Shown one piece after another: positions 11,812 to 31,836 of a DNA stretch of 64,000 nucleotides. Under the pieces are notes generated by a model. That model worked only from the letters and a program-made list of their open reading frames with translations. It did no database searches and was not told the origin of the DNA. Position 1 is the stretch's first letter. Each line of letters begins with the position of its first letter. A program made the translations under genes and the position numbers. This stretch comes from Candidatus Koribacter versatilis Ellin345. GTDB taxonomy: Bacteria > Acidobacteriota > Terriglobia > Terriglobales > Acidobacteriaceae. The stretch lies in the NCBI RefSeq assembly GCF_000014005.1, contig NC_008009.1, positions 3,844,001-3,908,000 of the forward strand, written 5' to 3'.

Positions 11812-12600
11812 CTAGATCTTGCGAACGCTCTTCCGCAGCATCGTCTCAATCAATCCTGGCCACATTGAATACGTCACGAATAGTGGGCGGTAGTACCACG
11901 GGACTACGATCTCTCGCGATTTCTTCACGCATCCCCTTAACACCGCGCGGGCTACGCGGTCGGCGGTAATGCCGTGTTTTGTGGATCCGCCGACGCGACG
12001 GCTGTCGCTTCCCTTCACCGCGTTTTTGCCGAACTCGGTTTGCACGTAGCCGGGGCAGACGCTCACGATCGCGATTCCATATTGGTCGAGTTCGAGGCGA
12101 CTGGTGTGACTTATCGCGTTGAGGGCGTGCTTGCTGGCGCAGTAGGCGGGCATGTAGGGGACACCGATGTATCCGGCGGCGCTGGAGACGTTGGCGATGA
12201 CGCCGGAGCGCTGGCGCTGCATTGCTGGGATGACGGCCTGCATGCCTTGGACGGCGCCCCAGAGGTTGGTGTCGAAGAGTTCGCGCGCGGCGGTGAGGTC
12301 GAGGTTCTCGGTGGAGTCGAGGAGGCCGTAGCCGGCGTTGTTGATCCAGATGTCGATGCGGCCGAACCTCGCAAGGACTGCCATGATGAGCGCATCGATG
12401 CTGGCGCGGTTGCGGACGTCGCAGGCTAAGGCGACTGTCTGCTCGGGATGGCCGATGCGCTGGCGGGCCTCTTCGCAGCGGGCGGCTTCGCGGGAACAGA
12501 GAACCACCTTCGCACCTTCGTTGACGAAGAGCTTGGCGATGGCCTCGCCGATGCCCATGGAACCGCCGGTAATGACTGCAATCTGGTCTTTCAGTTTCAT
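11812..12600 (-). CDS. Short-chain dehydrogenase/reductase
   Basis: This is a classical NAD(P)-dependent SDR of 262 residues. ATG 12600 is chosen because the Rossmann fold begins at once (MKLKDQIAVITGGSMGIG). Visible landmarks are TGGSMGIG (nucleotide binding), NNAG (structural), a Ser in ANVSSAAG and the catalytic YCASK (Tyr-x3-Lys). The PGYVQTEF segment after strand beta-6 is also typical. Arg after the second strand (CSREAARCEE) favours NADP(H), as inference. The substrate is unknown. It diverges from the AAA+ gene across 148 bases with no obvious operator. Confidence 0.92.
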   Translation of the reverse strand: MKLKDQIAVITGGSMGIGEAIAKLFVNEGAKVVLCSREAARCEEARQRIGHPEQTVALACDVRNRASIDALIMAVLARFGRIDIWINNAGYGLLDSTENLDLTAARELFDTNLWGAVQGMQAVIPAMQRQRSGVIANVSSAAGYIGVPYMPAYCASKHALNAISHTSRLELDQYGIAIVSVCPGYVQTEFGKNAVKGSDSRRVGGSTKHGITADRVARAVLRGCVKKSREIVVPWYYRPLFVTYSMWPGLIETMLRKSVRKI

Positions 12601-12748
12601 GTGCTTTAAATTGTGCGCGAGAGATTTCGCAACGACGGCGTGAATTGCGCGTCCAATGTAACGTCTGAATGTAACACCCAGCAAGCGAGGGCATTGAAAA
12701 CCGTTTTCAACTGCGGGCGTATAATCGCCAGCACCGGAGGCATCCTCC

Positions 12749-14257
12749 TTGAGTTCCCTTCCCGAAACACTCGGCCAACTGAGAAAGTCTTCATTTTCCG
12801 AACCGCGTCTGGCGAGACGCCGCGTGAAAGACGAGCTGCGCGAAAACCTGCTCGACCGCCTGCGGCAAGGGGGAAACATCTTCCCTGGGATCGTGGGCTA
12901 CGAAGACACGGTGACGCCGCAAGTCGTGAATGCGCTGCTCTCGCGGCATAACTTCATCCTGCTCGGACTGCGCGGACAGGCGAAGAGCCGCATACTGCGC
13001 GCGCTTACGTCGCTGCTCGACGCGGAGACGCCGTATCTCGCGGGCTGCGAGATCCATGACAATCCGTACGATCCGATCTGCCGGCGCTGCAAGGACATGA
13101 TCAAATCGTTTGGCGACGATGCGCCAATCGCGTGGCTTTCCGCCGAGGAACGCTACGTGGAGAAGCTGGCGACGCCGGACGTGACGATCGCGGACCTCAT
13201 TGGCGATATCGATCCGATCAAAGCGGCGAAGCAGGGATTTACGCTGGCGAGCGAATTGACGGTCCACTACGGTCTGTTGCCGCGCGCCAATCGCGGGATC
13301 TTTGCGATTAATGAGTTGCCGGATTTGGCGGGGAAAATCCAGGTGGGGTTGTTCAACATCATGCAGGAAGGCGATGTGCAGATTAAGGGCTACCCGATCC
13401 GGCTGCCGCTGGATGTGGCGCTCGTCTTTAGCGCGAACCCGGAGGACTACACCGCGCGCGGCAAGATCATTACGCCGCTGAAGGACCGCATCGGGTCGGA
13501 GATTCGCACGCACTATCCGTCGACGGTGGAAGAAGGGATTTCGATCACGCAGCAGGAGGCGTGGACGCGGCGGGATGGTACGCGCATCCATATCCCGAGC
13601 TACATTCACGAGATCGTGGAACAAATTGCGTTCGTGGCGCGCGATGATAAGCGGGTGGATAAGCGCTCGGGCGTGAGCCAGCGGCTGCCGATCTCGACCG
13701 TGGAGAATGTTCTTTCGAACGCCGAGCGGCGAGCGCTGCGGAGTGGTGAGCATACGGTGGTGCCGCGGGTGGCGGATATCTACGCGGCGCTGCCGGCAAT
13801 TACCGGCAAGCTGGAACTGGAATACGAAGGCGAGATCAAAGGCGCGGATGCGATTGCGCGAGAGGTCATCCGCACGGCGATTGCGAAGACTTACGATCGA
13901 TACTTCCAGGGAAACAACAACCATCTGAAGCAGGTGGTGCAGTACTTCGACCTCGGCGGCGAAGTGCAGATGCTCGACACGGCCCCGGCAGAAGAAGTGC
14001 TGGAGAGCATGAAGAACATCCAGGGACTGATGGAGAAGATTGAGAACGTGGGCGCAAAGACGAGCGATGCGCCAGAGCTGCAGGCGTCGGCAGCGGAGTT
14101 CATTCTAGAAGGCCTGCACGCGCATAAGCGCATCGGCCGCACGGAGGAACGTAAGTTCACTGCTGGAGAGAAGCAGAGTGCGAAGAAAGAGCAGCTCTTC
14201 CGCGAGGAAGACGATTTCGTTCGCGAGCGCAACCGGAGAAACCGCGGGTTCAACTAG
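12749..14257 (+). CDS. MgChelatase-ChlI/MoxR-like AAA+ ATPase
   Basis: The 502-residue AAA+ protein resembles the I subunit of magnesium chelatase but no chlorophyll genes are nearby. TTG 12749 is supported by GGAGG at 12736-12740. The P-loop is GLRGQAKS, with Ala where the usual Gly stands, a form I associate with this subfamily. A Cys cluster follows (CEIHDNPYDPICRRC). The Walker B region is IFAINELPDL and sensor 1 is VFSANPEDYTARG. It ends directly at the start of a VWA protein, the arrangement of MoxR/VWA chaperone pairs that mature or remodel other complexes. The client is unknown. Confidence 0.88.
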   Translation: MSSLPETLGQLRKSSFSEPRLARRRVKDELRENLLDRLRQGGNIFPGIVGYEDTVTPQVVNALLSRHNFILLGLRGQAKSRILRALTSLLDAETPYLAGCEIHDNPYDPICRRCKDMIKSFGDDAPIAWLSAEERYVEKLATPDVTIADLIGDIDPIKAAKQGFTLASELTVHYGLLPRANRGIFAINELPDLAGKIQVGLFNIMQEGDVQIKGYPIRLPLDVALVFSANPEDYTARGKIITPLKDRIGSEIRTHYPSTVEEGISITQQEAWTRRDGTRIHIPSYIHEIVEQIAFVARDDKRVDKRSGVSQRLPISTVENVLSNAERRALRSGEHTVVPRVADIYAALPAITGKLELEYEGEIKGADAIAREVIRTAIAKTYDRYFQGNNNHLKQVVQYFDLGGEVQMLDTAPAEEVLESMKNIQGLMEKIENVGAKTSDAPELQASAAEFILEGLHAHKRIGRTEERKFTAGEKQSAKKEQLFREEDDFVRERNRRNRGFN

Positions 14258-15825: not shown

Positions 15826-18033
15826 CTAGCGTTTGAATGCCACGTTGACCAGTAGCTTGTCGCCTTCTACATCTACCACATTGCAGAAGGTCCGTGTGCC
15901 ACCGCGCGTGAAATCGAGCCCGACGCGGCTGTTACCGATGCGGAGATTGCGAACGTGGAGGTGATCGAGCCAGTCCGGCAGTTCGGGATTGACGATGTTC
16001 AACTCTTTGCGTTGCGCGCTGGGGCGGATGCCGAGGACCGAGGTCAGGATGAGGAACATGGCGCCCGACGCCCAAGCCTGGGGCGAACAGGAGACCGGGT
16101 AGTGCACGGGCTCGTCGTTGATACGGCGCTGCACGCCGCAGAAGAGTTCGGGCAGACGGTAGTCGCGAAACTCAAGAGCCGCCTGATAGAGGCTAGTTAG
16201 GACCTGAAGCGCCGGCTCGCGATACTCATTGAGAGCCATGCCGTGGGCAATGAGCGAATTGTCGTGCGGCCAGACGGAGCCGCGATGGTAGCTCAGCGGG
16301 TTGAAGATCCGCTCCGACATTGCGAGCGTTCGCCAGCCCCAGCCGCTATACAGGTCGTCTTGCATGAAGCGCTGCGTGACCATGCGGGCGCGCTCTCGGC
16401 TGAGCATGCGTGTGAAGAGCAGGTGGCCGGGATTGGAAGAGATGACGCGTAGCGGCTTTTTCTCGGCGTCGAGGGCCATGGCGTAGAAGCCTTCGTCGGG
16501 CATCCAGAAAGCCTTGTCGAAGCGCTTGGCCAACTCGGTGGCTTCGCGGCGGAGGCGGTCAGCGGTACCGGTGTCGCCAAAGGTGCGCAGCAACGACGAC
16601 ATGCGGTACTTCGCTTCGTAGACGTAGCCCTGCACTTCGCAGAGCGCGATCGGCGTTTCGGCAACCTTGCCGTCGCGGTGCATGTTGGCGTCCCACGAAT
16701 CTTTCCAGCCTTGGTTGATCAGACCTTTCGGCGAGCGGCGCTGGTATTCAACGAAGCCGTCACCATCGCGATCGCCATAGCGGTCGAGCCACTCCAGCGC
16801 GCGCATCGCTGCGGGTAGGAGATCGCGCACGAGTTGATCGTCGGCAGTCCAGTTGTAAGCCTCGCTGAGGAGAATGAGGAAGAGCGGAGTGGCGTCCACC
16901 GAGCCGTAGTAGGGGCCGAAGGGCATCTCGCCGCAGAGGGTCATCTCGCCTTCGCGGTATTCGTGCAGGATTTTGCCTGGCTCTTCGTCCTGCCATGCAC
17001 TGTCGCGCGTGCCCTGGTAGCGGGCGAGAACACGAAGGGTATCTACCGCGAGTTGCGGATTGAGACAGAGAGATTGATAGGCGGCGATGATGGAATCGCG
17101 ACCGAAAATCGTAGCGAACCACGGAATACCGGCAGCGATGATGTGTTCGTTGCCATTCGGTACCTGGAGAGCGTGGAAATCGCCGATGCCGGTGTTCAGG
17201 GCCGCGTCGAAGACTTCGTTGTTGGTCTTGAAATGCGTGCTGCGGCGTTCCCACTCGTTGAATGCGTGGCGACGCTGCTCTAGGGTGCGCTCCATATTGA
17301 TAGCGGCGTTGCGCGAGGGAACGCGGTTGGAGGCTGGTGTAACACGGGCCTCGATCTGAATGCGCTTGAGCGGTTCAAGCTTCAAATGCCAGCGGCCGAC
17401 GCGGGCCTCGATCTCGTCGGGCTTTGGACTCATTTCCACGAGCGTCTTGCGCATTACGCTGTCGCGGCCGCGGTAGTAGAAGCAGATGGAGGACTCGGTC
17501 AGGACCGGCTGGAAATGCTGGCCCTGAACAGCGCGCGCTACGCCGCGTACCTGAAAGACGTCCACAAAGTCGGCGTCGTAGAGCAGTTCGACTGTGAACT
17601 CCACCGGCGTTTGATTGAAGTTCTCAAACGTAAAGCAATCGAAGAAGACATCGGAACCGAGGACCTGTTCTCTGCGGATGTGGACGGTGTTTTCTGGCAA
17701 GTCGAAGGAATCACGCAGCGTGATGTTTCCGGTGGTGAGCTCGATTTGCGACGAGAACGTTCGTTCCGTGCTCGAGGAGAGCACGACGGCGCGATGGCCG
17801 TCGATACGGAACTCAAGGTGGGAGAGGAAGCGGGTGTCCTGGTGAAAGAAGCCGACGTCGGGCGCGCCGGCGGGAGCTATATCGCCGGCGACGATTGTAG
17901 ACAGGAAGGTCTTCCCATCAATGAGGGTGAGGTTGTTGACCTTCCGCGGTTCGAGCGACTGGAAAGCGATCCTCGGCTCAAGGTGCGGCGAAGGTATCGG
18001 GACTAGCTCTTTCTCATCTATCAACAAGCTCAT
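15826..18033 (-). CDS. Amylo-alpha-1,6-glucosidase / glycogen-debranching-type enzyme
   Basis: The 735-residue protein has the N-terminal bis domain of debranching-type enzymes (about 20-215, with NNLTLIDGKTFLSTIVAGD). The (alpha/alpha)6 barrel from about 290 contains PWFATIFGRDSIIAAYQSL, QGWKDSWDANMHRDG and SVWPHDNSLIAHGM, blocks typical of GH63/GH133-like glucosidases. Acid residues of the barrel are present, but the exact catalytic pair is not assigned here. Its ATG overlaps the stop codon of the upstream GT4 gene (ATGA), so the two are co-translated. Pairing with a glycosyltransferase suggests turnover of an alpha-glucan or a related oligosaccharide. Confidence 0.88.
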   Translation of the reverse strand: MSLLIDEKELVPIPSPHLEPRIAFQSLEPRKVNNLTLIDGKTFLSTIVAGDIAPAGAPDVGFFHQDTRFLSHLEFRIDGHRAVVLSSSTERTFSSQIELTTGNITLRDSFDLPENTVHIRREQVLGSDVFFDCFTFENFNQTPVEFTVELLYDADFVDVFQVRGVARAVQGQHFQPVLTESSICFYYRGRDSVMRKTLVEMSPKPDEIEARVGRWHLKLEPLKRIQIEARVTPASNRVPSRNAAINMERTLEQRRHAFNEWERRSTHFKTNNEVFDAALNTGIGDFHALQVPNGNEHIIAAGIPWFATIFGRDSIIAAYQSLCLNPQLAVDTLRVLARYQGTRDSAWQDEEPGKILHEYREGEMTLCGEMPFGPYYGSVDATPLFLILLSEAYNWTADDQLVRDLLPAAMRALEWLDRYGDRDGDGFVEYQRRSPKGLINQGWKDSWDANMHRDGKVAETPIALCEVQGYVYEAKYRMSSLLRTFGDTGTADRLRREATELAKRFDKAFWMPDEGFYAMALDAEKKPLRVISSNPGHLLFTRMLSRERARMVTQRFMQDDLYSGWGWRTLAMSERIFNPLSYHRGSVWPHDNSLIAHGMALNEYREPALQVLTSLYQAALEFRDYRLPELFCGVQRRINDEPVHYPVSCSPQAWASGAMFLILTSVLGIRPSAQRKELNIVNPELPDWLDHLHVRNLRIGNSRVGLDFTRGGTRTFCNVVDVEGDKLLVNVAFKR

Positions 18034-19235: not shown

Positions 19236-20360
19236 CTAAGGCGCTTTTGCGAGTGGCTCACATTCACTGGCTACCGCAGGCGAACGGTGCACGGCCAGGA
19301 CCTTCATGATCTGGTCTTCGAACTGCTGTGCGCGGCGCTGACTGGTGTGCTCCGCGAGCACGCGTTCCTGGGCGGCCAAGCCAATCCTCTCGATCTCTTC
19401 CTCGCTAAGGTCGGTGATGAAGTGCAGCACATCGCGATGGTCCGCGGGGAGAAGGATTTCGCGCCCGGGAGTGAAGAAGGAATCGAGGCCAGGCCAGTTG
19501 TCGGAAATAATCGCGGCACCGCAGGCGGCGGCTTCGAAGAGGCGGACAGAGGGAGAGTAGCCCGCCTGCACCATGTCGCGACGGGTGACGTTGAGGGTGA
19601 AACGCGACGACGAATAGAAGCGTGCGTGCCAGCGCGGGTTGAGATGGAATATTCGCTTCACATTTGCCGGCCAGGTGATGGTCTTGGGGTACTGTGGGCC
19701 AGCGACGATGAACTTGCGTCGAAGCAGCATGGTTGCCGGTTTGCAGAGTAGCTCTTCGATCTTCGGCTGCCGGTCGGGCGCATACGTACCCATGTAGCTG
19801 AGATCGCACGCGAACCGCTGGTTGACGCCGAAGCGCCGGTATTCGTCGGGATCGAAGGAGCAGTAGAGCGGGTAAGCACGTTGTGCGCCGAAGCGGGATT
19901 CCAACTCACGCAGCATGGGGCCGCCGGTGAAGCTGAAGTAGATGTCGAACCCGGGAACCTGCGCTTTCTGCAGATAGTCAGTGGCGTCGCGCTCGCGGAG
20001 GGCTGCGACCGTGATCGGGGTGTCGATGTCGTAGTAGGTCTTGGCGCGGACGGGCGAGTCGAAGATCTCTTCGGCGGCGGCGATGCCATCGGGAAAGTAC
20101 GAGCCCAGCATGGCGACATCCGCACTGCGCAACTCAGCGCGAACGGTTGGGAGAATGGCGTCCCAGTCTTCATACAGACGAACGGTGCAGAATTGCGGCT
20201 CGGGAAGATCGCGATTCGAGGCGTACCACTCTACGTTCTTCTCGAAGAAGACAATGCGATGCCCGCGTTCGCGCAAAGCCTGGCAGAGCGCGCGAAACGT
20301 GGTTGCGTGCCCGTTTCCCCAGGATGAAGTAATGGAGAGCCCGAAGATGACGATCTTCAT
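19236..20360 (-). CDS. CgeB-like glycosyltransferase, third tandem copy
   Basis: The 374-residue protein is a GT-B enzyme of the CgeB/glycosyltransferase-1 type. ATG 20360 is chosen because the Rossmann strand begins there (MKIVIFGLSITSSWGNGHA) and AGGCAATCCT precedes it. The C-terminal half carries the donor-site block SVRLFEAAACGAAIISDNWPGLDSFF. It is clearly paralogous to the next two upstream genes in both the N-terminal FGxSxxSSxxNGxA segment and the C-terminal FxPGxEIL segment. Ten bases separate it from the preceding gene. The specific sugar is unknown. Confidence 0.87.
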   Translation of the reverse strand: MKIVIFGLSITSSWGNGHATTFRALCQALRERGHRIVFFEKNVEWYASNRDLPEPQFCTVRLYEDWDAILPTVRAELRSADVAMLGSYFPDGIAAAEEIFDSPVRAKTYYDIDTPITVAALRERDATDYLQKAQVPGFDIYFSFTGGPMLRELESRFGAQRAYPLYCSFDPDEYRRFGVNQRFACDLSYMGTYAPDRQPKIEELLCKPATMLLRRKFIVAGPQYPKTITWPANVKRIFHLNPRWHARFYSSSRFTLNVTRRDMVQAGYSPSVRLFEAAACGAAIISDNWPGLDSFFTPGREILLPADHRDVLHFITDLSEEEIERIGLAAQERVLAEHTSQRRAQQFEDQIMKVLAVHRSPAVASECEPLAKAP

Positions 20361-20370
20361 AGGATTGCCT

Positions 20371-21471
20371 CTACACCGCTTGTCGGAGTTCGTGCCGTTC
20401 CCTCTGCGGAGCCGAACTTCTGAAAATCGACATCGCGAGTTCCGCACGCTGGGCGTATAGGTGGTCACGCAGGGCGTGGGTACGCATCGCTTGTCCAATC
20501 GCGCGGGCCTTCTTCGGTGGCGTCGTTCGGAGAAGGTGGACGATCTCGTCGGCGCTGGATGCGACCAGGATCTCGTTGCCTGGCTCGAAGAACGTTTCGA
20601 TACCCTTCCAGTGATCGGTAATGAGACATGCGCCGGCGCCGGCTGCTTCGAATACACGCGTCGGAGGGGAGAACCCGACGTCAGCCATGGATTCGCGGTT
20701 GATGTTGAGGACCATGCGCGCGGAGCAATTCACGCGATTGTGGTCGCCAGTGCGGACGTGGCCGATCCAGCGGACGTTCGGCGGTAGCTCCTTGTTGCCC
20801 CAACCCTCTCCGCCCAGGATGAACTTGCATTCCGGCGCGAGTTCGGCGGTGCGCAGGAAGAACTGCTCGACACGCCGTTCGCGATCTGGCAACCGGTTGC
20901 CGACGAAAACAAGATCGCAAGCGAAATCTGAACTCGGGTCGGCCGGGTGGTGCGATTCGGGCTCGAGTGCGTTATAAACGGGGTGGCAATTCTTCGCACC
21001 GAGTTGGAGATATCGTTGAACGATAGGCGGGCCGCCACCGTAGGTGAAGACGAAATCGTACTCGGGAATGCAGGCGCGGAAGGGATTCAACGGCTCGGCT
21101 TCGACACTAGACAGCGTGGCCGGGGCGTCCACGTCCCAGAAGGCAACGCGGGTGCGTGGGGAGCGGCAGTCGAGGACGCGGCGCTCGAGCAGCGCATCTT
21201 CGGCGCCGATTCCACTGTGCTTGATGACCAGGTCGGAGTCGCTGGCGAGGCGCAGGAGCCAATCAATGTCGTCGGGCGTGCGGTAGACCAGAGATTTCGC
21301 ATAGCTGTAGTCGCCCGGGTCGCGATTCTGCTGGCGTTTGTAGATGTCGGGCTCAGCAAAAATGATTTCGCAACCCAACGCCGCGAGGTTCTTGTAAATG
21401 CCGCGGTAGTAGGTCGCCGCACCGTTCCAGTACGACGAAACCAGGCTGGAGCCGAAGACGAAGATCTTCAC
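20371..21471 (-). CDS. CgeB-like glycosyltransferase, second tandem copy
   Basis: The start is set at GTG 21471, not the ATG 18 bases upstream: GTG overlaps the previous stop as GTGA, has AGGAG at good distance, and directly begins the Rossmann strand VKIFVFGSSLVSSYWNGAATYY. The 366-residue product shares the GT-B layout of its neighbours, with TRVFEAAGAGACLITDHWKGIETFFEPG as donor-binding block. It is probably a step in assembly of the same glycan as its paralogues. Confidence 0.87.
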   Translation of the reverse strand: MKIFVFGSSLVSSYWNGAATYYRGIYKNLAALGCEIIFAEPDIYKRQQNRDPGDYSYAKSLVYRTPDDIDWLLRLASDSDLVIKHSGIGAEDALLERRVLDCRSPRTRVAFWDVDAPATLSSVEAEPLNPFRACIPEYDFVFTYGGGPPIVQRYLQLGAKNCHPVYNALEPESHHPADPSSDFACDLVFVGNRLPDRERRVEQFFLRTAELAPECKFILGGEGWGNKELPPNVRWIGHVRTGDHNRVNCSARMVLNINRESMADVGFSPPTRVFEAAGAGACLITDHWKGIETFFEPGNEILVASSADEIVHLLRTTPPKKARAIGQAMRTHALRDHLYAQRAELAMSIFRSSAPQRERHELRQAV

Positions 21472-22586
21472 CTTGTCATCTCCTCGCAAATTTCCTGTAG
21501 TTGTTGCGCGCGATGGGCGCAGGTGTGGCGGGCGCGCACGGTTTCCATACCGCTAGCGCTGAGTTGGGTGCGGGCAGCGTCGTCGCTCAACAAGTGAGCG
21601 AGTTCCGCGGTCATCGCTTCGCCGCTCTCCACCACGAGGTAGTCGTGTCCAGGACGGAAGAGATTTTCGGCGTCGCTCCATGGGGAACACACCAGAGGTA
21701 CGCCGCAGGCGAGCGCTTCGAAGACGCGGATCGTCGGGATGCCGCTCAGTCCGTTGGCGTACTCGCGACGAGGGACGTGCAATGCGACGCAGCTCTGCGA
21801 AAATGCCGCCGGCACGGAGAGATTCGGCAGATAGCCCTGATAATCGATTCCGGCTGTCTCGAGGGTCTGGATCGCGATCTCCGGATAGCGAACGCCGTGG
21901 ACCTTAAATTTTCTGTCAGGTAACTCGGTTGCGGGACGGACTAGGAACTCGAGAAGTTCCTTCGTGCGCTCTTCATCCCCCCAATTCCCGACCCACACTA
22001 CGTCGGTGGATTTGTCGGACCTGATGGGATGGAAGTTGTCGATGTCGGCGGCTTCGTGGAAGGTCCAGACCTTTGGAATACCGAAGCCGTCGCGATAGAT
22101 GCGGGTGATGGGCTCGCCGAATGCTAGAACGCCGTCGAACAGGTGGAGCGGAAAGCGAAGGATCTCTCCGGCACGAGAATAGGCGCGATGGTGAGTGTCG
22201 TGAAACAACGCGCGAAAACCGAATTTCTCCTTGCGCGACAGGATCGCACTCGCAATCGCCGGATCGTTCCATTCGTGGATGATGACGAAGTCGGCGTCGC
22301 TTAGATGCTCGTCGAGAAACTCATCGAACTTGTTGTTGCGATCGTAGAACCGCACGTCGAGCATGGGGAACTTGGCGCGGAACTGGTCAATGGATTCAAT
22401 GGCGCGATCGCATTCGCTGTTCACAAGATTGGAGAGCGACCACGCCCCGAGTTCTTCAAAGCAGCGGACTTCGTGCCCTAGTTTGCCGAGTTCGCGGGCG
22501 AGACCGCGCAGGAAATGCGCGTTGCCGTGGTTCCAGTCCGAGACCCAGGAGTGTGCGAAGAAGCGGATTTTGAAACGATCGCTCAT
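21468..22586 (-). CDS. CgeB-like glycosyltransferase, first tandem copy
   Basis: The product is a 372-residue GT-B enzyme beginning MSDRFKIRFFAHSWVSDWNHGNAHF. The C-terminal donor-site block is TIRVFEALACGVPLVCSPWSDAENLF. Its ATG overlaps the stop codon of the GT4 gene upstream (ATGA), and its own stop overlaps the next start (GTGA). It is the most diverged of the three paralogues, with a longer central segment. No membrane segments. Confidence 0.87.
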   Translation of the reverse strand: MSDRFKIRFFAHSWVSDWNHGNAHFLRGLARELGKLGHEVRCFEELGAWSLSNLVNSECDRAIESIDQFRAKFPMLDVRFYDRNNKFDEFLDEHLSDADFVIIHEWNDPAIASAILSRKEKFGFRALFHDTHHRAYSRAGEILRFPLHLFDGVLAFGEPITRIYRDGFGIPKVWTFHEAADIDNFHPIRSDKSTDVVWVGNWGDEERTKELLEFLVRPATELPDRKFKVHGVRYPEIAIQTLETAGIDYQGYLPNLSVPAAFSQSCVALHVPRREYANGLSGIPTIRVFEALACGVPLVCSPWSDAENLFRPGHDYLVVESGEAMTAELAHLLSDDAARTQLSASGMETVRARHTCAHRAQQLQEICEEMTR

Positions 22587-23692
22587 GCTGCTTGCGTGCG
22601 CGCTCCCAGTTTTCGATAGAGCGCCAAATATTCGTCCACCATGCGGTCCGCATTGAAGTACTGGCGCGCGCGGTTATAGGCGAGATTGGCGAAGGTGAGA
22701 CGCAGATCGCGATTGCCCGCCATTCGATTGAGAGCATCGAACAACGACGCGGCATCGTTCGAATCGAAATAGCACGCCGACTCGCCCCATATCTCGCGAA
22801 AGCTGGGGATATCGTTGGCGACGAGGGCACAACGCGACAATGCGGCTTCCAGCGGCGCAAGGCCGAAAGGTTCGTAGCGCGAGGTTGCGGCGTAGATCGA
22901 GGCCCGACTGTAAATGTGGCGCAGTTGACCTTCGGATTGATGGCCTATGACGCGCACACGAGTGCGATCGATGAACGCGAAGGGCGAGCCTTCGCGAAAT
23001 ACTTCGTCGGGATGCTGTTCGGTGCCGGCAATAGTGATGGGCATGCGAGCTACGCCATGAAGCAGGAGCGAAACCTGCTTGCCGGAGTCCCAGAGGCGTC
23101 CGACAGAAACAATCCCGGCTTCCTTGCTGACGTGAGGGTTAAACAATAAGGGTGAACGTCCGTTGTAGATAACGCTCGAGGCACGAGGTTCGCAGTAATA
23201 GCGCTCGACGTTGTCGAGCATCCAGCGCGATGGCGCGACGACGGTGGTCGCCTGCTCGAGGCCAGACTGAACCACATCGCGGTACCAGGCCATCCACGGG
23301 ATCTCGTTCGGTACCTCGCCCTTCACCGATGCCCACCAGCTGACGACATCGCTGTGGGCGACGACGATCTTCGGAATGTCTACTTTGAGGGCGCCGTAGG
23401 CGAACTGATTCAGGTGCAGAACGTCAGGACGGACTTCATCAATGATCGCGTGCAGGTATTCAGAGGAAGCGTCGATATCGTCGCGCGCTTCCTGCATCCA
23501 TTCCAGGCGGAAGGCGGTGGCACGGAAATCAACGGAGCGGACGGTATCGAGCCACTCGGTCTGTGCGGGCGACGGGATCTCGCCGAAGCTGACCAGCGTT
23601 ACGCGCACCCCACGACGCACCAGGCCCGTCACCAGTTCCCTGGCGTAGGTCCAAACGCCGCCAATCGTGTCTGCCGTGACGAGTACGTGCAT
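22583..23692 (-). CDS. GT4-family glycosyltransferase
   Basis: A 369-residue retaining GT-B glycosyltransferase starting MHVLVTADTIGGVWTYARELV, with the Gly-Gly acceptor loop. The donor domain contains SRYEPFGLAPLEAALSRCALVANDIPSFREIW. Both sequence and position (directly after the epimerase, 8-base gap) suggest it uses the sugar nucleotide that the epimerase makes, which is inference. It is co-translated with the CgeB-like genes through an ATGA junction. Confidence 0.9.
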   Translation of the reverse strand: MHVLVTADTIGGVWTYARELVTGLVRRGVRVTLVSFGEIPSPAQTEWLDTVRSVDFRATAFRLEWMQEARDDIDASSEYLHAIIDEVRPDVLHLNQFAYGALKVDIPKIVVAHSDVVSWWASVKGEVPNEIPWMAWYRDVVQSGLEQATTVVAPSRWMLDNVERYYCEPRASSVIYNGRSPLLFNPHVSKEAGIVSVGRLWDSGKQVSLLLHGVARMPITIAGTEQHPDEVFREGSPFAFIDRTRVRVIGHQSEGQLRHIYSRASIYAATSRYEPFGLAPLEAALSRCALVANDIPSFREIWGESACYFDSNDAASLFDALNRMAGNRDLRLTFANLAYNRARQYFNADRMVDEYLALYRKLGARTQAA

Positions 23693-23700
23693 GCTTGCTC

Positions 23701-24819
23701 CTAAGCCGTCAATCCGTAAGCCGTGAGCTGCTGCGTGGCATCCGAGACCTTGTCGGTAGCGGACTGATTGCGCAGCCAGGCAACGAGCTCACCGATGCCA
23801 TCCGCGAAGCGATGCTTGGGCCGGTAGCCGAGGACCTTCTGCGCCAGACCGATGTCAGCGAAACAGTGGCGAATGTCTCCGGCGCGATACTTGCCGGTGA
23901 TTTCAGGCTCGACGTGAAGGCCGAGGGCGGCGCCGAGAATGTCAGCTACTTGAGAAATCGAGATTGGCGCGCCTGAGCCGATGTTGATGGCCAGGCCGTT
24001 CGCCTCTTCGCGGTCCATAGCCAGCAAATTCGCCTGCACGATGTCGTGCACACTGACGAAATCCCGCTGCTGCTCGCCATCTTCGAAAATCATGGGAGAG
24101 CGGTGATTCAGCAAGCGCGAGGCAAAGATCGCTGCCACACCGGTGTAAGGGTTCGAAAGCGCCTGCCGCGTGCCGTAGATGTTGAAGTATCGCAATGCGA
24201 CCACCGGCGCTCCATAGGTGCGGCCATAGAGAAGACACATCTCTTCCTGGTCTTTTTTCGAGAGGGCGTAGATGGAAGTGCACTGCAACCGCTTGGATTC
24301 GTCGGTGGGAATAGGCGCGAGCTTCGCGTTACAGACGGGGCAAAGCGCTTCCCACTCCTTCTTCCGCAATTGATCGATCGGCCGAGGCTCGGGAGCAATG
24401 TCGCCGTGCTCGGCGCACCGGTACTTCCCTTCGCCGTAGATGGACATTGAGGAGGCGACAACCAGCTTCTCGAAATCGCGGCGGCTGTCGAGCATCGCTT
24501 GCAGCAAGTTGGCGGTGCCCTGCGTGTTAGCGCTCATGTAATGGGAAATCTCATACATGGACTGTCCAACGCCGACAGCAGCGGCTTTGTGAAAGATGAC
24601 GTCGATGTTTTCGAGCGAGCGGCGAACGGCGTCAAGGTCGCGCATGTCGCCTTGAATGAACTCGATGTCGGTGGCGAGATAGCTTGGCAAGCCGTGTGGA
24701 TGCACCTGGGGCGAGAGGTTGTCAAAGACGCGAACGCTGTGGCCTGCACGGAGCAAGGCGTCGACCAAGTGCGATCCCACAAACCCCGCGCCGCCCGTGA
24801 CCAGGATTCGTTTTCTCAT
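23701..24819 (-). CDS. NAD-dependent sugar-nucleotide epimerase/dehydratase with Cys-rich insert
   Basis: The 372-residue extended SDR interconverts or oxidises nucleotide sugars. The NAD motif is TGGAGFVGSH (8-17); the catalytic pair is Tyr184/Lys188 in YALSK, with Ser123-124 upstream. An insert before the catalytic Tyr carries Cys135, His138, Cys160 and Cys163 (CPVC), suggesting a zinc knuckle. I recall similar inserts in dTDP-L-rhamnose 4-epimerase-like enzymes, but cannot assign the substrate firmly. ATG 24819 overlaps the stop of the glycoside hydrolase gene (ATGA), which also fixes the start. Confidence 0.88.
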   Translation of the reverse strand: MRKRILVTGGAGFVGSHLVDALLRAGHSVRVFDNLSPQVHPHGLPSYLATDIEFIQGDMRDLDAVRRSLENIDVIFHKAAAVGVGQSMYEISHYMSANTQGTANLLQAMLDSRRDFEKLVVASSMSIYGEGKYRCAEHGDIAPEPRPIDQLRKKEWEALCPVCNAKLAPIPTDESKRLQCTSIYALSKKDQEEMCLLYGRTYGAPVVALRYFNIYGTRQALSNPYTGVAAIFASRLLNHRSPMIFEDGEQQRDFVSVHDIVQANLLAMDREEANGLAINIGSGAPISISQVADILGAALGLHVEPEITGKYRAGDIRHCFADIGLAQKVLGYRPKHRFADGIGELVAWLRNQSATDKVSDATQQLTAYGLTA

Positions 24820-25739
24820 TTGCGCCCGACCTTCAGTTCGAGATCTTGATCGACCACGGCTTTCGGGGCATAACGCGTGACGGCCCAACGCGCGAAATCC
24901 GCGAAGTCAGCGGGATTGCTGGGAGGACTGGTGTAATGCGGCTGAACCCCGAGATGTTCCGGCGTGAAACAAAGCGTCATCGTGGTTGCAAACTGCTGCA
25001 GCGCACTCATCTGGACGTCGAACCACGCTTCTGCATTGGGGCGATACCAGTCTGCCCAGCTCACCCCGGTGCGCAGGTACTTGACGCCGAGCTTTCTCAG
25101 CCAATCCACACCGAGTTCCAGGCGATGGTCTTCGAAGTGGAACCACTGGCAGATGCCGAGGCCCTTGGGAAACGTCAGTGCGGCGGGCTTGACCGAACCG
25201 TCTTCGCGCAGAAGGCCCATGTAGTAGTGCCGGTAATACGAACTGCCTTCGGCTTCCTTGTGGCGCGTGGTGGCCGACCACGAGGCCGGCAGGTCAAACA
25301 GGCTGTACCAGTACACGCGCTCGACTATGGGCAGGAGCAATTCCGCCGTCTTGCGGACGCCCCACTCCTGCACTTCTTCGGCACCGAAGGAAGAAGCGCC
25401 GACTTCCGTTACCCAGACCGGTTTGCTGGTGACGGCGCGGATTTCGTCCACCTTCTTTGGCCACTCATGGATGTTCCAGTGGTTCCAGTCGAGCGGGAAG
25501 CCGTGAATGGCGACGACATCCACGGCGTCAATGACGCCATGGCCAGTGAGCAACTCGATAAAGTGCGGATCAATCGGCGAGATTCCGCCCAGCACGATCT
25601 TGAGGTCTGGATTGACCTCGCGGATCGCGCGGGCTGCCGCGATCGTCATCTCTGCAAATGCCTTCCACTCCGGATCGATCTTGAAGTCCCAATGCGACAG
25701 GTTGTTGGGCTCATTCCAGAGCATGACTGCTTCAACCAT
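24816..25739 (-). CDS. Apparently circularly permuted clan-A (GH39/GH5-like) glycoside hydrolase
   Basis: The 307-residue protein has the acid/base motif WNEPN with Glu10 almost at its N-terminus and a candidate nucleophile Glu112 in VWVTEVG. In clan A these belong to barrel strands 4 and 7. Strand 8 (VYWYSLFDLP) follows at about 135. After residue 175 come segments that normally open such barrels: GICQWFHF (strand 1), VKYLRTGVSW (2), MTLCFTP (3) and a helix ending FARWAVTRYAP, which normally runs straight into the NEP strand. Strand order is thus 4-5-6-7-8-1-2-3. GGGAG precedes ATG 25739, and the stop overlaps the epimerase start, so truncation is unlikely. The substrate is unknown; cluster context suggests a glycan-editing role. 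Confidence 0.82.
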   Translation of the reverse strand: MVEAVMLWNEPNNLSHWDFKIDPEWKAFAEMTIAAARAIREVNPDLKIVLGGISPIDPHFIELLTGHGVIDAVDVVAIHGFPLDWNHWNIHEWPKKVDEIRAVTSKPVWVTEVGASSFGAEEVQEWGVRKTAELLLPIVERVYWYSLFDLPASWSATTRHKEAEGSSYYRHYYMGLLREDGSVKPAALTFPKGLGICQWFHFEDHRLELGVDWLRKLGVKYLRTGVSWADWYRPNAEAWFDVQMSALQQFATTMTLCFTPEHLGVQPHYTSPPSNPADFADFARWAVTRYAPKAVVDQDLELKVGRK

Positions 25740-25784: not shown

Positions 25785-26564
25785 TTACAGCGTGCCCGCG
25801 AGTTCGTGATCGAGAATGTACTTGCCGTCGGCGCGGAGCGATGACCGCGGCTCGCAGATCCAGGTCTCGGACTCGGGATGGTCAACAATTTCGAGGCCTG
25901 AGCTTCGAAGCATGCCTTCCGCGGCGGCGCCGTTGGGGATCCACCAGTTCGTTGGATCGTTGGCGTAGCTGTTCTCGATGAAATACATCTGCGGAAAATC
26001 GGGATCTTTGAAAATCTCTTTGTTCCAGAAGTGGTAATCGTTTTCGACGGCTTTGGTTTGCTCCGAGCCGCGAAGCATGGTCTGAAAGACGAGCTTCTTG
26101 CGAACTTTTTTGATCACCGTGTCGAGCGCAAAGAGCGGATACCGCAGGTGATAAAAGACGCCCATGAAGAAGACGTAATCGAACTGCCCCTCGATCTTCT
26201 CCACGTCGTATACCGAGCGCTTTTCAAACTCGATATCGAGGTTGAGGGTTTCCGCGGCAAAGCGTGCCTGGTTGAGATAGCGGTCGTCTACGTCAATTCC
26301 GAGAACACGCCCGGCGCCGCGCTGCTTCATCTGGATGGAATAGAAGCCGCCGTTGCAGCCGATGTCGAGCACGCTCGCGCCTTCGAGGTCGCGAGGAATC
26401 GCACGCTCAATGTGTTTCCACTTCACGCGCGGGAAATCGCCGAGGAAGTGGTTGGGCGCGGTGGCTATGCCGTGGAGATCGAGATTGTGGAACCAATCGC
26501 CGAGCTCTTCGATCCGGCGTGACAGCAGGTCGCGGTCAACGTCAACACGATGAATTGTCGCCAT
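25785..26564 (-). CDS. SAM-dependent methyltransferase, CmoB-like (TIGR04290-type, tentative)
   Basis: The product (259 residues from ATG 26564) is a class I methyltransferase with SAM motif SVLDIGCNGGFYS (64-76), acidic loop GIDVDDRY, and the segment YVFFMGVFYHLRYPL typical of tRNA mo5U34-methyltransferase (CmoB) relatives. The N-terminus WFHNLDLHGIATAPNHFLGDFP also matches that group. Its place at the head of a glycosyltransferase operon argues for a sugar or lipid substrate rather than tRNA. The start has no clear Shine-Dalgarno; ATG 26618 is an alternative. Confidence 0.85.
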   Translation of the reverse strand: MATIHRVDVDRDLLSRRIEELGDWFHNLDLHGIATAPNHFLGDFPRVKWKHIERAIPRDLEGASVLDIGCNGGFYSIQMKQRGAGRVLGIDVDDRYLNQARFAAETLNLDIEFEKRSVYDVEKIEGQFDYVFFMGVFYHLRYPLFALDTVIKKVRKKLVFQTMLRGSEQTKAVENDYHFWNKEIFKDPDFPQMYFIENSYANDPTNWWIPNGAAAEGMLRSSGLEIVDHPESETWICEPRSSLRADGKYILDHELAGTL

Positions 26565-27576: not shown

Positions 27577-29073
27577 CTAGATTGCGGCGCCGTATTCCTT
27601 CAGTTTTCGATACAACGTGGTTTTGCCGATGCCGAGCAGACGGGCGGCTTCGAGCTTGTCGCCGTGCAGCCGTTCGATGGCCTCGAGTATGGCTTGCTTC
27701 TCCATCTCCGCAATAGGCACGATGCCATTGGTTGGCGCTGCCGGCGCTTGCGGCGCCAGGACCGTTTGCGTCTGGACATGCCAGTTCTGGATCGTTGTCG
27801 GAAGATCGAGAGTGTTGATGGTCGGCCCGCTGGTGAGCGCGCACGCACGATCGAGACAATGCTCGAGCTCGCGCACGTTTCCGGGCCAGTCGTAGGTGAG
27901 CATGAGTTTGAGGGCTTCGTCGCTGATGTTGCGCTGGAAGCCGGTGGCGCGTTCCGTCCGCTCCAGGAAATGCCCGACAAGAAGCGGGATGTCCTGTTTG
28001 CGGTCACGGAGTGGAGGAATGCGAAGCGTGAGCACGTTAAGACGGAAGTAGAGGTCGCGGCGGAAGGTGCCTTGCTGGACGGCCTGTTCGAGATCGCGGT
28101 TGGTAGCGGCGAGGATACGGACGTTGATCGGCACGGCGCGAGTTCCACCCACCGGACGAATCTCTTTTTCCTGGAGCGCGCGAAGCAGCTTCGATTGCAG
28201 GTCGATGGGCAGTTCGCCGATTTCGTCGAGGAAGACCGTACCGCCGTCTGCCATCGCAAGCAGCCCTTGCTTGGAATGCTGCGCCCCGGTGAAGGCACCT
28301 TTGACGTAACCGAAGAGTTCGCTCTCGATCAGCGTCGGCACCAGCGAGCCGCAATCCACGGGGATGAACGGTTTGTCTTTGTAGCAACCGGTGTAGTGCA
28401 CGGCGCGCGCTACCACTTCCTTGCCGGTACCGCTCTCGCCCATGATCAAGACGGGATGGGTGCTGTTCGCGGCTTTGGTGATGATGCGATAAAGGCGTTC
28501 CATTTCGGGCGCACGGCCAACCATGCCGCCGAATCCGTGTCGTGCCTTTACCTGCTCGCGCAGCATGCGGTTCTCGGTGGTCAATTTCAGGTGACCGGTG
28601 ACGCGGTCGAGAAGGATGCGCAATTCGTCCATGTTGAACGGCTTGGTCACGTAGTCGAATGCGCCGTGTTTCATCGCCTGCACCGCGGACTGCACGGTGG
28701 CATATCCAGTCACCACGATGACAATGGTTTCAGGACGGCGCTGCTTGATCTGGCGCAAGGCTTCGAGCCCGCCAATGCCGGGCAGGCGCAGATCGAGCAG
28801 GATGACATCGACACTGGTGCTGTCGAGGATCTTGTAGGCCTGTTCCGCATTCTCCGCGGTGAAAGTTGAGAAGCCGAGAGTTTGTGCCACATCGCGGCAG
28901 CCCTCCCGCACCACTCGTTCGTCGTCCACGATCAGCAAATTCAGGAGGTTCGCCTCAGTGCTCGCTTGTTGTACCGTCATTTTCGTCGTCCAACCGAACC
29001 GGGGGCCAGCATCCCCAATCGGGAAAACTGGCGTCTCTCCGGGGTCTCTTGGGACCCGATGTTCTTCTAGCAT
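27577..29073 (-). CDS. NtrC-family sigma-54-dependent response regulator
   Basis: The 498-residue protein has a receiver (about 45-160, phospho-acceptor Asp94 in ILLDLRLPG), an AAA+ domain with GESGTGKE (Walker A) and GAFTGA (sigma-54 contact), and a C-terminal Fis-type helix-turn-helix (LEAARLLGIGKTTLYRKLKEYG). ATG 29073 is preferred to 28980 since it overlaps the upstream stop as TGATG and has GGAG at good distance, even though it adds a 31-residue leader before the receiver. The linker between AAA+ and HTH is Pro/Ala-rich. It should activate sigma-54 promoters, possibly its own operon. Confidence 0.92.
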   Translation of the reverse strand: MLEEHRVPRDPGETPVFPIGDAGPRFGWTTKMTVQQASTEANLLNLLIVDDERVVREGCRDVAQTLGFSTFTAENAEQAYKILDSTSVDVILLDLRLPGIGGLEALRQIKQRRPETIVIVVTGYATVQSAVQAMKHGAFDYVTKPFNMDELRILLDRVTGHLKLTTENRMLREQVKARHGFGGMVGRAPEMERLYRIITKAANSTHPVLIMGESGTGKEVVARAVHYTGCYKDKPFIPVDCGSLVPTLIESELFGYVKGAFTGAQHSKQGLLAMADGGTVFLDEIGELPIDLQSKLLRALQEKEIRPVGGTRAVPINVRILAATNRDLEQAVQQGTFRRDLYFRLNVLTLRIPPLRDRKQDIPLLVGHFLERTERATGFQRNISDEALKLMLTYDWPGNVRELEHCLDRACALTSGPTINTLDLPTTIQNWHVQTQTVLAPQAPAAPTNGIVPIAEMEKQAILEAIERLHGDKLEAARLLGIGKTTLYRKLKEYGAAI

Positions 29074-29670: not shown

Positions 29671-31701
29671 TTAATTCGAGTTACCGGAACCGCTCGCTGA
29701 AGGCGCCGTCGCACTGTGGCCCGGTGCCGAGGAAATCGCCACGCCGTTGTACGCCGTCGCTGCCAGGTAGCCGCCACGATAACCGACGGCGCTACGAACC
29801 AGCAGACCAGCGTCATCTGAATACTTCCAAGTCTGTCCGTTGTCGGAGCTGGAGTAAACGCCGCGACCATCGCGAGAGGTGGCGAGCATCCGGTTATTTG
29901 CGGTATCGAGGCTGACGGTGAGGACGTGCTTCCACGGGAGTCCCGCCGTAACGTGCTCCCATGTCTTTCCGTCGTCACCGCTACGCAATGCACCCTGCTG
30001 CGTCGCCAGCCAAAGCGACTGATCGAACCCAACCGCAGCATCGTAGATACCGGTGATGAACTTCGGCACGCTCACTTGCGTCCAGTGTCCGCCGTGATCG
30101 GTTGTGACGTAGCCGTCAAGTGCGGATGCTGCGAAGGCCTTGTCGCCGAACGCGCCGATCGCAAGGAAACGTACGTCACCTTCGATATCGGCGTGTTGCC
30201 AGGTTTTGCCATCATCCTTGCTGCTGTAAACGCCACTGCTTGCGGCGGCGTACCAGAGCGCCGGAGTGAACACGAGTTGCGACACCTGCGAGGTCAGTTC
30301 CGATTTCTCGATGGTGACCTTCGGCGTGCCTTCGTGTGCCGGAATCTTTTTGCCTTTAACGACCTTCGCGGGAATCTTAGGACCAGGCGTGGTCTTTTCC
30401 TTCACCACGACACTGGCAGGCTCCCACAACAGCGTCTTGCTCGAGAATTTCATGACGCCGTGATTGGTGCCGGCGAAGATGTCGCCATCACCTGCCTGGC
30501 GAAGAGTGAAGACATCGCGGTCTTTCAGGCCCTTGCTCGCCTGTGACCAGGTAGATCCGGCGTCGCGCGAGACATACATGCCACCGAAGTCGCGATCGTT
30601 CAGCAGTCCGACATAGATCGTGTTGGGATCTTTCGAATCCACCAGCAGCGATGAGACCTGGCGATGCGAGTAGCCGCGGTTTGACTGCGTGAACGTGGCG
30701 CCGCCGTTTTCGCTGGCGAGAACACCGCTGCGATCGGTTGCCAGCAGCACGCGGCTGGTGTCGCGCGGATCGACGGAGACATCGTTAACGATGACTTCCG
30801 GGCCGGTCATGCGCTTGAACGTCTTACCGCCATCGAGGGTCTTGTAAAGCCCTTCCGTGGTGCCGGCGTAAACAATCTGCGGGTTCTTCGGGTCCTGCAT
30901 CAGCACGCGCGTACGGCGCGCCGTGGCAGGAATGCCAGTAACTTTATGGAAGAGATTGCCTGCGCTTTCGCTCTTGTAGATACCGGAGCACGCGCTGGCG
31001 AATACCGTAGAAGGGTTCGAGAAGTCGACGATGATGGAGAAGACGTCGGAGTCGTCAATGACGCCCTCTTTGATGTGGTGCCATGACTTGCCTCCGTCAT
31101 CGGTCTTCCACGGCAGGTGCCAGGTGCCAGCGTAAACGACGTCGGGATTTTTGGGATCGATGGCGATGGATTCAATGTTCTTGATCTCCGCGTGATTTTC
31201 CGGGGAGATACGCCGCCAGGTTTCACCACTGTCGTCGCTGCGATAGACGCCATCGAGTGCGCCGATGACCAGAGTCTTCGAATTGCTCGGCGCGATGGAA
31301 AGAGCGCGAATCGATTTACCGCGCATGCCCTCGATGGTCTTCCATGACTTGCCACCGTCGCGAGTGACATAGAGATCGCCGGCGTCACGCTGGTGCTCCA
31401 CACTCCACACACCGATGTAAATCGTGTTCGGATCGCTGGGATCGAACGCGGTGTTGTCGAGGACATAGTCGTCGCCGAGGCCGATCTGCGCGAAGCGATT
31501 CCAGGAGTGTCCGCGATCATTGGACATGTAGAGCTGGCCGGAACTTGTACCCAGCAGAATGCGGTCGGGATTGTGAGGGTCGAACGCGAGACTGCGGGCG
31601 TCGCCGCCATCTGGACCAAGTTCTTTCCACGATGAAGCCGATGCGAGGGTCACAGCCAACAACAGGACAAACAGCAGCGAAAACAGCTTGCGCATGAACA
31701 T
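29671..31701 (-). CDS. Secreted BNR/VPS10-type beta-propeller repeat protein
   Basis: The product (676 residues from ATG 31701; ATG 31695 also possible) opens with signal peptide MRKLFSLLFVLLLAVTLASA. The body is a series of sialidase-type Asp-box repeats, each of the form DGGKSW/DDSGETW/DDGKTW, every 50-60 residues, about ten in all, building one or two beta-propellers. Such VPS10-like proteins are abundant in Acidobacteriota. No sialidase catalytic residues are evident, so binding or scaffolding is likelier than hydrolysis. A linker at about 440-480 is Lys/Pro-rich. Confidence 0.85.
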   Translation of the reverse strand: MFMRKLFSLLFVLLLAVTLASASSWKELGPDGGDARSLAFDPHNPDRILLGTSSGQLYMSNDRGHSWNRFAQIGLGDDYVLDNTAFDPSDPNTIYIGVWSVEHQRDAGDLYVTRDGGKSWKTIEGMRGKSIRALSIAPSNSKTLVIGALDGVYRSDDSGETWRRISPENHAEIKNIESIAIDPKNPDVVYAGTWHLPWKTDDGGKSWHHIKEGVIDDSDVFSIIVDFSNPSTVFASACSGIYKSESAGNLFHKVTGIPATARRTRVLMQDPKNPQIVYAGTTEGLYKTLDGGKTFKRMTGPEVIVNDVSVDPRDTSRVLLATDRSGVLASENGGATFTQSNRGYSHRQVSSLLVDSKDPNTIYVGLLNDRDFGGMYVSRDAGSTWSQASKGLKDRDVFTLRQAGDGDIFAGTNHGVMKFSSKTLLWEPASVVVKEKTTPGPKIPAKVVKGKKIPAHEGTPKVTIEKSELTSQVSQLVFTPALWYAAASSGVYSSKDDGKTWQHADIEGDVRFLAIGAFGDKAFAASALDGYVTTDHGGHWTQVSVPKFITGIYDAAVGFDQSLWLATQQGALRSGDDGKTWEHVTAGLPWKHVLTVSLDTANNRMLATSRDGRGVYSSSDNGQTWKYSDDAGLLVRSAVGYRGGYLAATAYNGVAISSAPGHSATAPSASGSGNSN

Positions 31702-31836
31702 TTGGGTTAATGATACCGCCCTTCCCCTTGGAATGGACGCGGTGGCTAACCTCATAGTTTTACAAATTAGATACTAGGACAAGGTTACGGAAGGCGAGTG
31801 TCGCGCGCTTTTGGTGTGCACCGATTGAAAACAAAG

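Follow-up and report, generated by a model that had tools for sequence, protein, structure and literature searches.

A very probable circular permutation in a GH39-like glycosidase of Candidatus Koribacter versatilis and its canonical-order relatives

Few glycosidase barrels are naturally circularly permuted, and the enzymes of glycoside hydrolase (GH) family 70 are the standard case. In clan GH-A, the 4/7 superfamily, a triosephosphate isomerase (TIM) barrel carries an acid/base Glu after strand 4 and a nucleophile Glu at strand 7. PslG of Pseudomonas aeruginosa (PDB 5bx9 and 9g17), a GH39 endo-β-glucanase in CAZy, is encoded with an exopolysaccharide pathway and is periplasmic or secreted. 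Transaldolase and the class I aldolases, TIM barrels but not glycosidases, are related by permutation, and their alignment need not be sequential. Here we describe a gene in a 64,000-nucleotide stretch of Candidatus Koribacter versatilis Ellin345 (contig NC_008009.1, positions 3,844,001 to 3,908,000; the window) that very probably encodes a naturally circularly permuted TIM-barrel glycosidase, a clan GH-A relative of the GH39 kind in which strands β4 to β8 precede β1 to β3. The gene (24816..25739, minus strand) specifies 307 residues followed by a TGA stop codon (24816-24818), and its family is conserved over residues 1-291.

Permuted glycosidase barrels as such are already known. According to the available part of PMC11299179, the GH70 glucansucrases and GtfB-type glucanotransferases are naturally permuted and have extant unpermuted kin, so that a preliminary description of this DNA was right to name GH70 as a precedent; unlike the protein studied here, they are multidomain extracellular enzymes of the GH13-like clan GH-H. 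MalS (GH13 subfamily 19) also has circularly permuted domains, but the permutation there is one of domain order, C-A-B-A-C, and the clan is a different one (PMC10223318, available part). The pair of transaldolase and class I aldolase is discussed in the accessible portion of PMC2213659, while the accessible portions of two TIM-barrel reviews (PMC8250049 and PMC13105402) deal with permutation in evolution generally or in designed barrels. As far as these texts go, what is new here is a different, GH39-like lineage with unusually clear intermediates. No paper linking circular permutation with GH39, and none describing the permuted family, was found in a literature search that mostly did not extend to subscription journals.

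PslG was the top PDB sequence match of the window protein (phmmer, E value of 9.6e-8). However, the strands of PslG run in order from 1 to 8, and the match falls in two swapped pieces, with residues 3-192 aligned to PslG 132-327 and residues 185-230 aligned to PslG 12-58 (5 bits). A profile of 67 family members searched against the PDB gave the same swapped picture (7.8e-8). The Glu residues of WNEP (E10; 25710..25712, minus strand) and VTEVG (E112; 25404..25406, minus strand), the predicted general acid/base and nucleophile, align with the Glu residues of WNEP and STEWG in PslG. These are its acid/base Glu165 and nucleophile Glu276 as numbered in the available part of PMC11912335, by our reading of the chain index against the entry numbering (model 1 starts at 156). 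A search of genome contigs found 317 relatives, the best 80 of which underlie all counts of loci given below. Together with 21 sequences from a search of 61 genomes (that of the window and 60 relatives), they make up 101 full-length family rows, some genomes being counted twice and the contig-edge fragments L022 and L023 being excluded. E10 and E112 are Glu in all 101 rows. The preliminary description had placed WNEPN and VTEVG ahead of the segments that open such barrels. E10 does lie in WNEPNN and E112 in VTEVG, and the segments follow from residue 195 on: GICQWFHF at 195-202, VKYLRTGVSW at 219-228, and MTLCFTP at 254-260, with RYAP (289-292) ending the last helix.

An AlphaFold2 model made with 67 family sequences as input had a predicted local distance difference test score (pLDDT) of 89.1 and a predicted template modeling score (pTM) of 0.88. 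It contains strands at residues 2-7, 47-53, 75-80, 108-113, 142-145, 195-197, 221-227, and 251-257. Helices separate the strands, another helix spans 276-290, and confidence is low at residues 156-167. In the model, the C-terminal half completes the barrel, giving eight strands that alternate with helices, as the permutation proposed in the preliminary description implied. Its placement of strand 8 near residue 135 did not hold, since the model puts strand 8 at 142-145 and residue 135 at the end of the preceding helix. The clan GH-A layout is present in the model, where β4 (2-7) is followed by E10, and E112 stands at the end of β7 (108-113).

On the basis of the modeled strands and of matches to the later part of PslG and of the canonical relatives described below, residues 1-184 (25188..25739; this and the following segments are on the minus strand) correspond to canonical β4-α4-β5-α5-β6-α6-β7-α7-β8. 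Residues 195-291 (24867..25157) correspond to canonical β1-α1-β2-α2-β3-α3 and match residues 1-102 of the canonical relatives. Between them, residues 185-194 (25158..25187; helix 185-188, strand 195-197) would form a new α8-to-β1 junction between what were formerly the C- and N-terminal ends, and the canonical copies start near the equivalent of residue 193-194. The new chain termini would thus lie between α3 and β4, with the short α8-β1 junction linking the old ends. Residues 292-307 (24819..24866) are a tail that is variable in the family, with low pLDDT at its end.

Structure searches with the model gave partial Foldseek matches to GH53 (7osk; 181 columns, 19% identity) and GH39 (4m29; 201 columns, 19% identity). 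Among the full-length rows of the VIA list, the best had a Z score of 14.0, a root mean square deviation (rmsd) of 4.1, and 237 aligned residues at 10% identity. Rows 1-49 of the 50 listed were barrels at ≤12% identity, mostly full-length rows, which by our reading would be barrels superposed in a shifted register. Row 50 was PslG (9g17), which matched model residues 1-220 with 24% identity (Z score of 11.5, 181 aligned).

Pfam matches were confined to residues 3-123 and fell mid-profile in Glyco_hydro_cc, GH53, GH39, and Cellulase. The Glyco_hydro_cc match (PF11790) scored 23.7 bits, above the cut-off of 21, but it covered only positions 67-181 of the 237 in the profile. This profile matched 67 of 67 family members at an E value of 0.1 or better, and the permuted copy of one locus (L107) scored 18.1, under the cut-off. 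At the same threshold, the GH39 profile (PF01229) matched 17 of the 67 members. GH39 enzymes have their strands in the order 1-8, and the order 4-8 then 1-3 found here departs from it. No GH70 match appeared in the Pfam scan of the window protein at an E value of 1 or better. Profiles that depend on strand order see only part of a permuted protein, which may explain why members on plasmid records are labeled variously as β-xylosidase, glycosyl hydrolase, or hypothetical protein.

Strong evidence for the swap comes from relatives in canonical order. Locus L107 holds, besides its permuted copy, a same-cluster protein in which a canonical-order N-terminal domain is fused to an NAD-epimerase. This domain matches the window protein over two parts at 31% and 35% identity (4e-26 and 2e-11). 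Similar canonical-order epimerase fusions are present in Rhizobium etli (p42b, L111), Tistrella (L112), and Xanthomonas sacchari plasmids. Unlike the window protein, the GH domain of these GH-SDR fusions is the unpermuted N-terminal part of a longer protein, and several copies lack a catalytic Glu. The fused domains occur in the same kind of gene cluster as the permuted gene and share with it the motifs SWAD, HGFP, SPP, and WNEP. None of three scanned had a Pfam GH match at an E value of 0.05, and no published name for the fusion was found. The canonical GH domain of the X. sacchari R1 plasmid (L115, 10980-11878) is read in two frames and is either broken or affected by a sequence error.

The R. 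etli domain was searched against 34 genomes and 5 additional records. Its matches to the permuted gene came as two neighboring pieces in exchanged order in every one of the 34 genomes and in two plasmid records, from Azospirillum and Roseomonas; in the remaining three records, the form present is the canonical one. The same swap was seen in all 12 permuted-bearing genomes among 398 genomes of Pseudomonadota. Conversely, in 14/14 canonical rows, a profile of the C-terminal half of the permuted family matched within residues 1-102 and a profile of the N-terminal half within residues 104-293. Scores ranged from 42.9 to 124.6 bits (42.9 to 109.5 bits for the C-terminal half alone), while the best of 2,800 shuffled sequences reached 6.6 and 6.4 bits. 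Both halves of the protein therefore match a single homologue, swapped, over the full barrel, in 34/34 genomes and 14/14 sequences. The preliminary description had predicted that the two halves would find opposite halves of the same homologue. This is seen with PslG, where the C-terminal stretch matches weakly, and strongly with the canonical relatives, and its strand order of 4-8 then 1-3 is backed by the PslG match, the model, and the swap in 34/34 genomes. Homologues with strands 1-3 ahead of the NEP motif, which it had said would refute the idea, are present only as a separate canonical-order sister lineage, as a permutation requires. For comparison, the canonical L107 copy was modeled, with moderate to weak confidence (pLDDT of 62, pTM of 0.56). 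Most of its best structure rows were GH53, GH39, and GH1 enzymes with the usual order (Z scores of ≤11.0); PslG lay outside the 50 rows listed, and this absence is not used as evidence. When the R. etli canonical domain was searched against solved structures, nothing relevant was returned.

The PslG alignment and what is known of the family suggest that the enzyme is a retaining one, in which E10 would act as acid/base and E112 as nucleophile. Its sequence and neighbors make it probable that the protein works in the cytoplasm as a retaining glycosidase or transglycosidase, as part of a cluster that makes oligosaccharides. In contrast to PslG, it starts directly with a barrel strand, so that a signal peptide would have no place. 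This makes ordinary export unlikely and points to action in the cytoplasm. The substrate is therefore probably a cytoplasmic or membrane-bound intermediate. The enzyme would trim, edit, or transglycosylate a β-linked intermediate inside the oligosaccharide biosynthetic cluster. Alternatively, the barrel could be permuted as proposed but serve the cluster as a noncatalytic carbohydrate-binding or scaffolding protein. The several fused canonical copies that lack a catalytic Glu indicate that the fold can serve without catalysis, but E10 and E112 do not vary within the permuted family, nor does much of the sequence around them, and we consider this explanation unlikely.

The origin of the permuted form can be approached through a genome (G881) that has no permuted copy. 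It encodes a free-standing canonical-order protein of 329 residues from the likely Met (MRARPQLGVCQWFHY...), directly behind a TIGR04290 methyltransferase gene. This slot is the place of the permuted gene in the window and in most methyltransferase-bearing loci. The free copy had the top C-half score among the canonical rows (109.5 bits). A second free canonical copy, in genome G832 (L239, 6046-6465), is without the middle of the barrel; the adjoining matches to the glycosyltransferase family PF13524 are fragmentary, and this cluster looks decayed.

In a phylogenetic tree, the 32 permuted rows formed one clade (support of 100/100). This clade was sister to the free canonical copy of G881 (L210) with 97/98 support, and the fused rows and five outgroup rows lay outside. 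Without the outgroup, the split between permuted plus free rows and fused rows had 100/99 support. L067 and L097 were left out because the reorder point was not found in them. A single permuted clade with a canonical sister in the same slot points to one origin from a canonical ancestor. On the tree and synteny, the permutation most likely arose once, from a canonical-order ancestor located behind the TIGR04290 methyltransferase. The probable route would be a tandem duplication with fusion, after which both ends were lost; the sequences examined included no duplicated intermediate. The preliminary description did not anticipate the unpermuted sisters, a likely single origin, the occurrence in many phyla, or the link to a biosynthetic cluster.

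Several observations weigh against parts of this account. The free canonical sister is one intact copy on a long branch (1.2), the other free copy being internally deleted. The outgroup is distant, with a stem of 3.6 and lengths of 3-5 for three tips; of its five rows, L117 and L119 are recognizable in the later half only. The fused canonical rows form one group in 21% of bootstrap trees, so that their being a single clade is unsettled. In the comparisons with known enzymes, the first half of PslG matches the C-terminal part weakly (5-10 bits, with the single sequence and with the family profile). The window protein scores under the Pfam cut-offs for GH39 (20.1 bits versus 26, over residues 7-82 only) and GH53 (PF07745; 20.3 bits versus 24). 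Longer Foldseek alignments to GH53 chains (274-286 columns, 14-15% identity) had an rmsd of 17, which is no superposition. Finally, the proposed function is read from neighboring genes only, and the inositol and radical-SAM genes of other loci were not found in the gene run of the window.

The direction of change could have been the reverse, with the permuted order ancestral and the canonical cluster copies re-permuted from it. The permuted form is the commoner one among the 398 genomes of Pseudomonadota (12 genomes versus 2), and the distance of the outgroup and the unresolved fused rows leave room for this. Yet the outgroup rows and PslG are canonical as far as they can be read, and with the permuted rows in a single clade next to a canonical sister, one change of order suffices. 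We therefore regard a reversed direction as very unlikely. A chimera, in which three β-α units acquired from another barrel replaced lost strands, would fit the weak match (about 5-10 bits) of the C-terminal half alone to PslG. This explanation is highly improbable: the C-terminal half matches the N-terminal part of the same canonical relatives at 42.9 to 109.5 bits, and its top score is in the free canonical sister, which matches the other half too. That the gene is an artefact, broken, frameshifted, or misassembled so that strands 1-3 were lost and the 3' part is a neighboring fragment, is what the rarity of natural GH-barrel permutations would lead one to expect beforehand, but its probability is negligible given the same order in 101/101 rows, 34/34 genomes, and plasmid records of named strains, the ribosome-binding stretch, the ATGA overlap, and the methyltransferase open reading frame directly upstream, and conservation across phyla already refutes it.

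In the gene itself, the ATG at 25739 has a GGGAGA stretch just 5' of it, and at the other end the stop codon and the start of the following gene (SDR_A) share bases as ATGA, which bears out the good ribosome-binding site and the junction noted previously. The same order in 80 loci, including some in complete genomes, and in plasmid records excludes misassembly, in keeping with the earlier view that the gene is neither broken nor misassembled. Upstream of the ATG, the frame is open for only 15 codons, and the methyltransferase reading frame ends 45 base pairs from the gene on its upstream side. The start is therefore real, and N-terminal strands 1-3 would not fit. WNEP begins at residue 8 in 101/101 full-length rows, and together with the short open frame and the nearby methyltransferase, this rules out a missed upstream start.

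In genomes where a fused canonical copy coexists with a permuted copy, at least one catalytic Glu of the fused copy was lost in 8 of 8 determinable cases. The nucleophile was lost in G267, G280, G256, and G1360, the acid/base in G255 and G276, and both in G634 and G982. Where there was no permuted copy, both residues were kept in 9 of 10 genomes (G381, G319, G546, G448, G445, G301, G804, G881, and G1623). The fused copy of G881 was among these, intact despite the free canonical copy, where decay might be expected. As the one exception, G1369 is almost a twin of G1360, with its copy on a 6,870-base contig, and the permuted gene may be missing from its assembly. Left out of the count were G491 (contig edge; nucleophile kept, acid/base unseen), the plasmid-only L111 and L115, and distant canonical-order hits, such as one on contig 47 of G267 (31% identity) and others at about 30% or less. 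The G276 copy (31%) was counted because it and the permuted gene share a contig, where it lies in a 689-residue frame. A Fisher test of loss against presence of a permuted copy (8/8 versus 1/10) gave a two-sided P of 0.0004 for genomes that, being related, are not independent. Phylogenetic pairing leaves two to three independent contrasts, which puts significance out of reach, and with so few we do not claim the association.

A broader scenario is possible, although we hold it only tentatively. One permutation of a canonical-order glycosidase of this cluster would have given rise to a new, free-standing enzyme, which then reached many phyla and assumed the catalytic role, while the coexisting epimerase-tethered domain became a pseudoenzyme, through several different changes, or was dropped, leaving the epimerase alone. 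If true, this would be a permutation-driven gene replacement in which the ancestor, the ancestral slot, and the decaying predecessor are all visible. The unpermuted relatives, the free copy in the same slot, the fixed start, and the wide spread make the route of the permutation and its consequences testable, including fold stability, activity, and whether a permuted copy frees the fused domain to decay.

Titles of the best 80 of the 317 relatives name Acidobacteria, Myxococcota (Sorangium, Minicystis, and Anaeromyxobacter), Verrucomicrobia, Ignavibacteria, Chloroflexi, Nitrospirae, Gemmatimonadetes, Azospirillum, Bdellovibrionales, Armatimonadetes, and others. Matches were found in 147 plasmid records, canonical copies included, mostly of Sinorhizobium and Rhizobium, and in no phage record. 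Across 385 genomes of one class of Pseudomonadota, 6 had the permuted form only, 6 the canonical form only, and 2 both; the corresponding numbers for the 398 genomes of Pseudomonadota were 12, 2, and 0, and a further 5 genomes gave weak hits left unsorted. The genome look-ups numbered 1,828 in all, some of them repeats. Closer to the window, 23 of 61 genomes (its own and 60 relatives) had a match, and its own genome had one match to the family profile. Seven of 199 genomes of its phylum had a match, of which two, including that of the window, had the permuted gene and five had weak partial matches. One permuted copy in the phylum outside the near relatives (L116, genome G250) has a TGA inside the matched range.

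The permuted gene belongs to a run of genes, of which those listed below from the methyltransferase to the third PF13524 gene are on the minus strand, and the finding points to a widespread biosynthetic cluster. Neighbor counts refer to homologues within 6 kb of the permuted gene in the 80 loci, many of which end at contig ends. Upstream is the TIGR04290-family S-adenosylmethionine (SAM) methyltransferase (25785..26564, start inferred; 387.9 bits, cut-off of 300; 68/80 loci). Downstream are SDR_A, an NAD-dependent epimerase/dehydratase (23701..24819; PF01370; 46/80), a GT4-type glycosyltransferase assigned with Pfam (22583..23692; 45/80), and a CgeB-like glycosyltransferase of PF13524 (21468..22586, also from Pfam; 45/80). 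A second PF13524 glycosyltransferase (20371..21489; 32/80) and a third (19236..20360, start inferred; 39/80) follow. Another GT4 gene, which brings the glycosyltransferases in the window to five, and a GDE/MGH1-like glycosidase complete the run. The latter gene (GDE_N_bis plus MGH1-like; 15826-18033) closes the glycosyltransferase run and has homologues in the flanks of 5/80 loci.

Other neighbors were SDR_B (39/80 loci), a TIGR04295 B12-radical-SAM protein (30), a histidine phosphatase (21), inositol-3-phosphate synthase (9), a Gfo/Idh oxidoreductase (9), and a zinc dehydrogenase (7). The best NCBIfam models for the last two, inositol 2-dehydrogenase and scyllo-inosose 3-dehydrogenase, respectively, were both far under cut-off. 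NCBI names the radical-SAM model B12_rSAM_oligo. The cluster has one or two epimerases; the radical-SAM protein is frequent in it, and inositol-pathway enzymes are occasional. The methyltransferase, the inositol-type genes, and this name suggest that the cluster may make a methylated, perhaps cyclitol-containing, oligosaccharide. No paper on the cluster was found in the literature search, and none naming TIGR04290, TIGR04295, or Rta_06860. On plasmid pRmeGR4d of the laboratory organism Sinorhizobium meliloti (strain GR4; L238), the permuted gene (11983-12867) lies beside inositol-3-phosphate synthase and histidine phosphatase genes, with no TIGR04290 methyltransferase match within the stretch examined. 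Upstream of the cluster in the window is a sigma-54-dependent response regulator on the same strand (27577-29073), and the window also encodes a 694-residue protein with Sortilin-Vps10 and BNR repeats (29671-31755).

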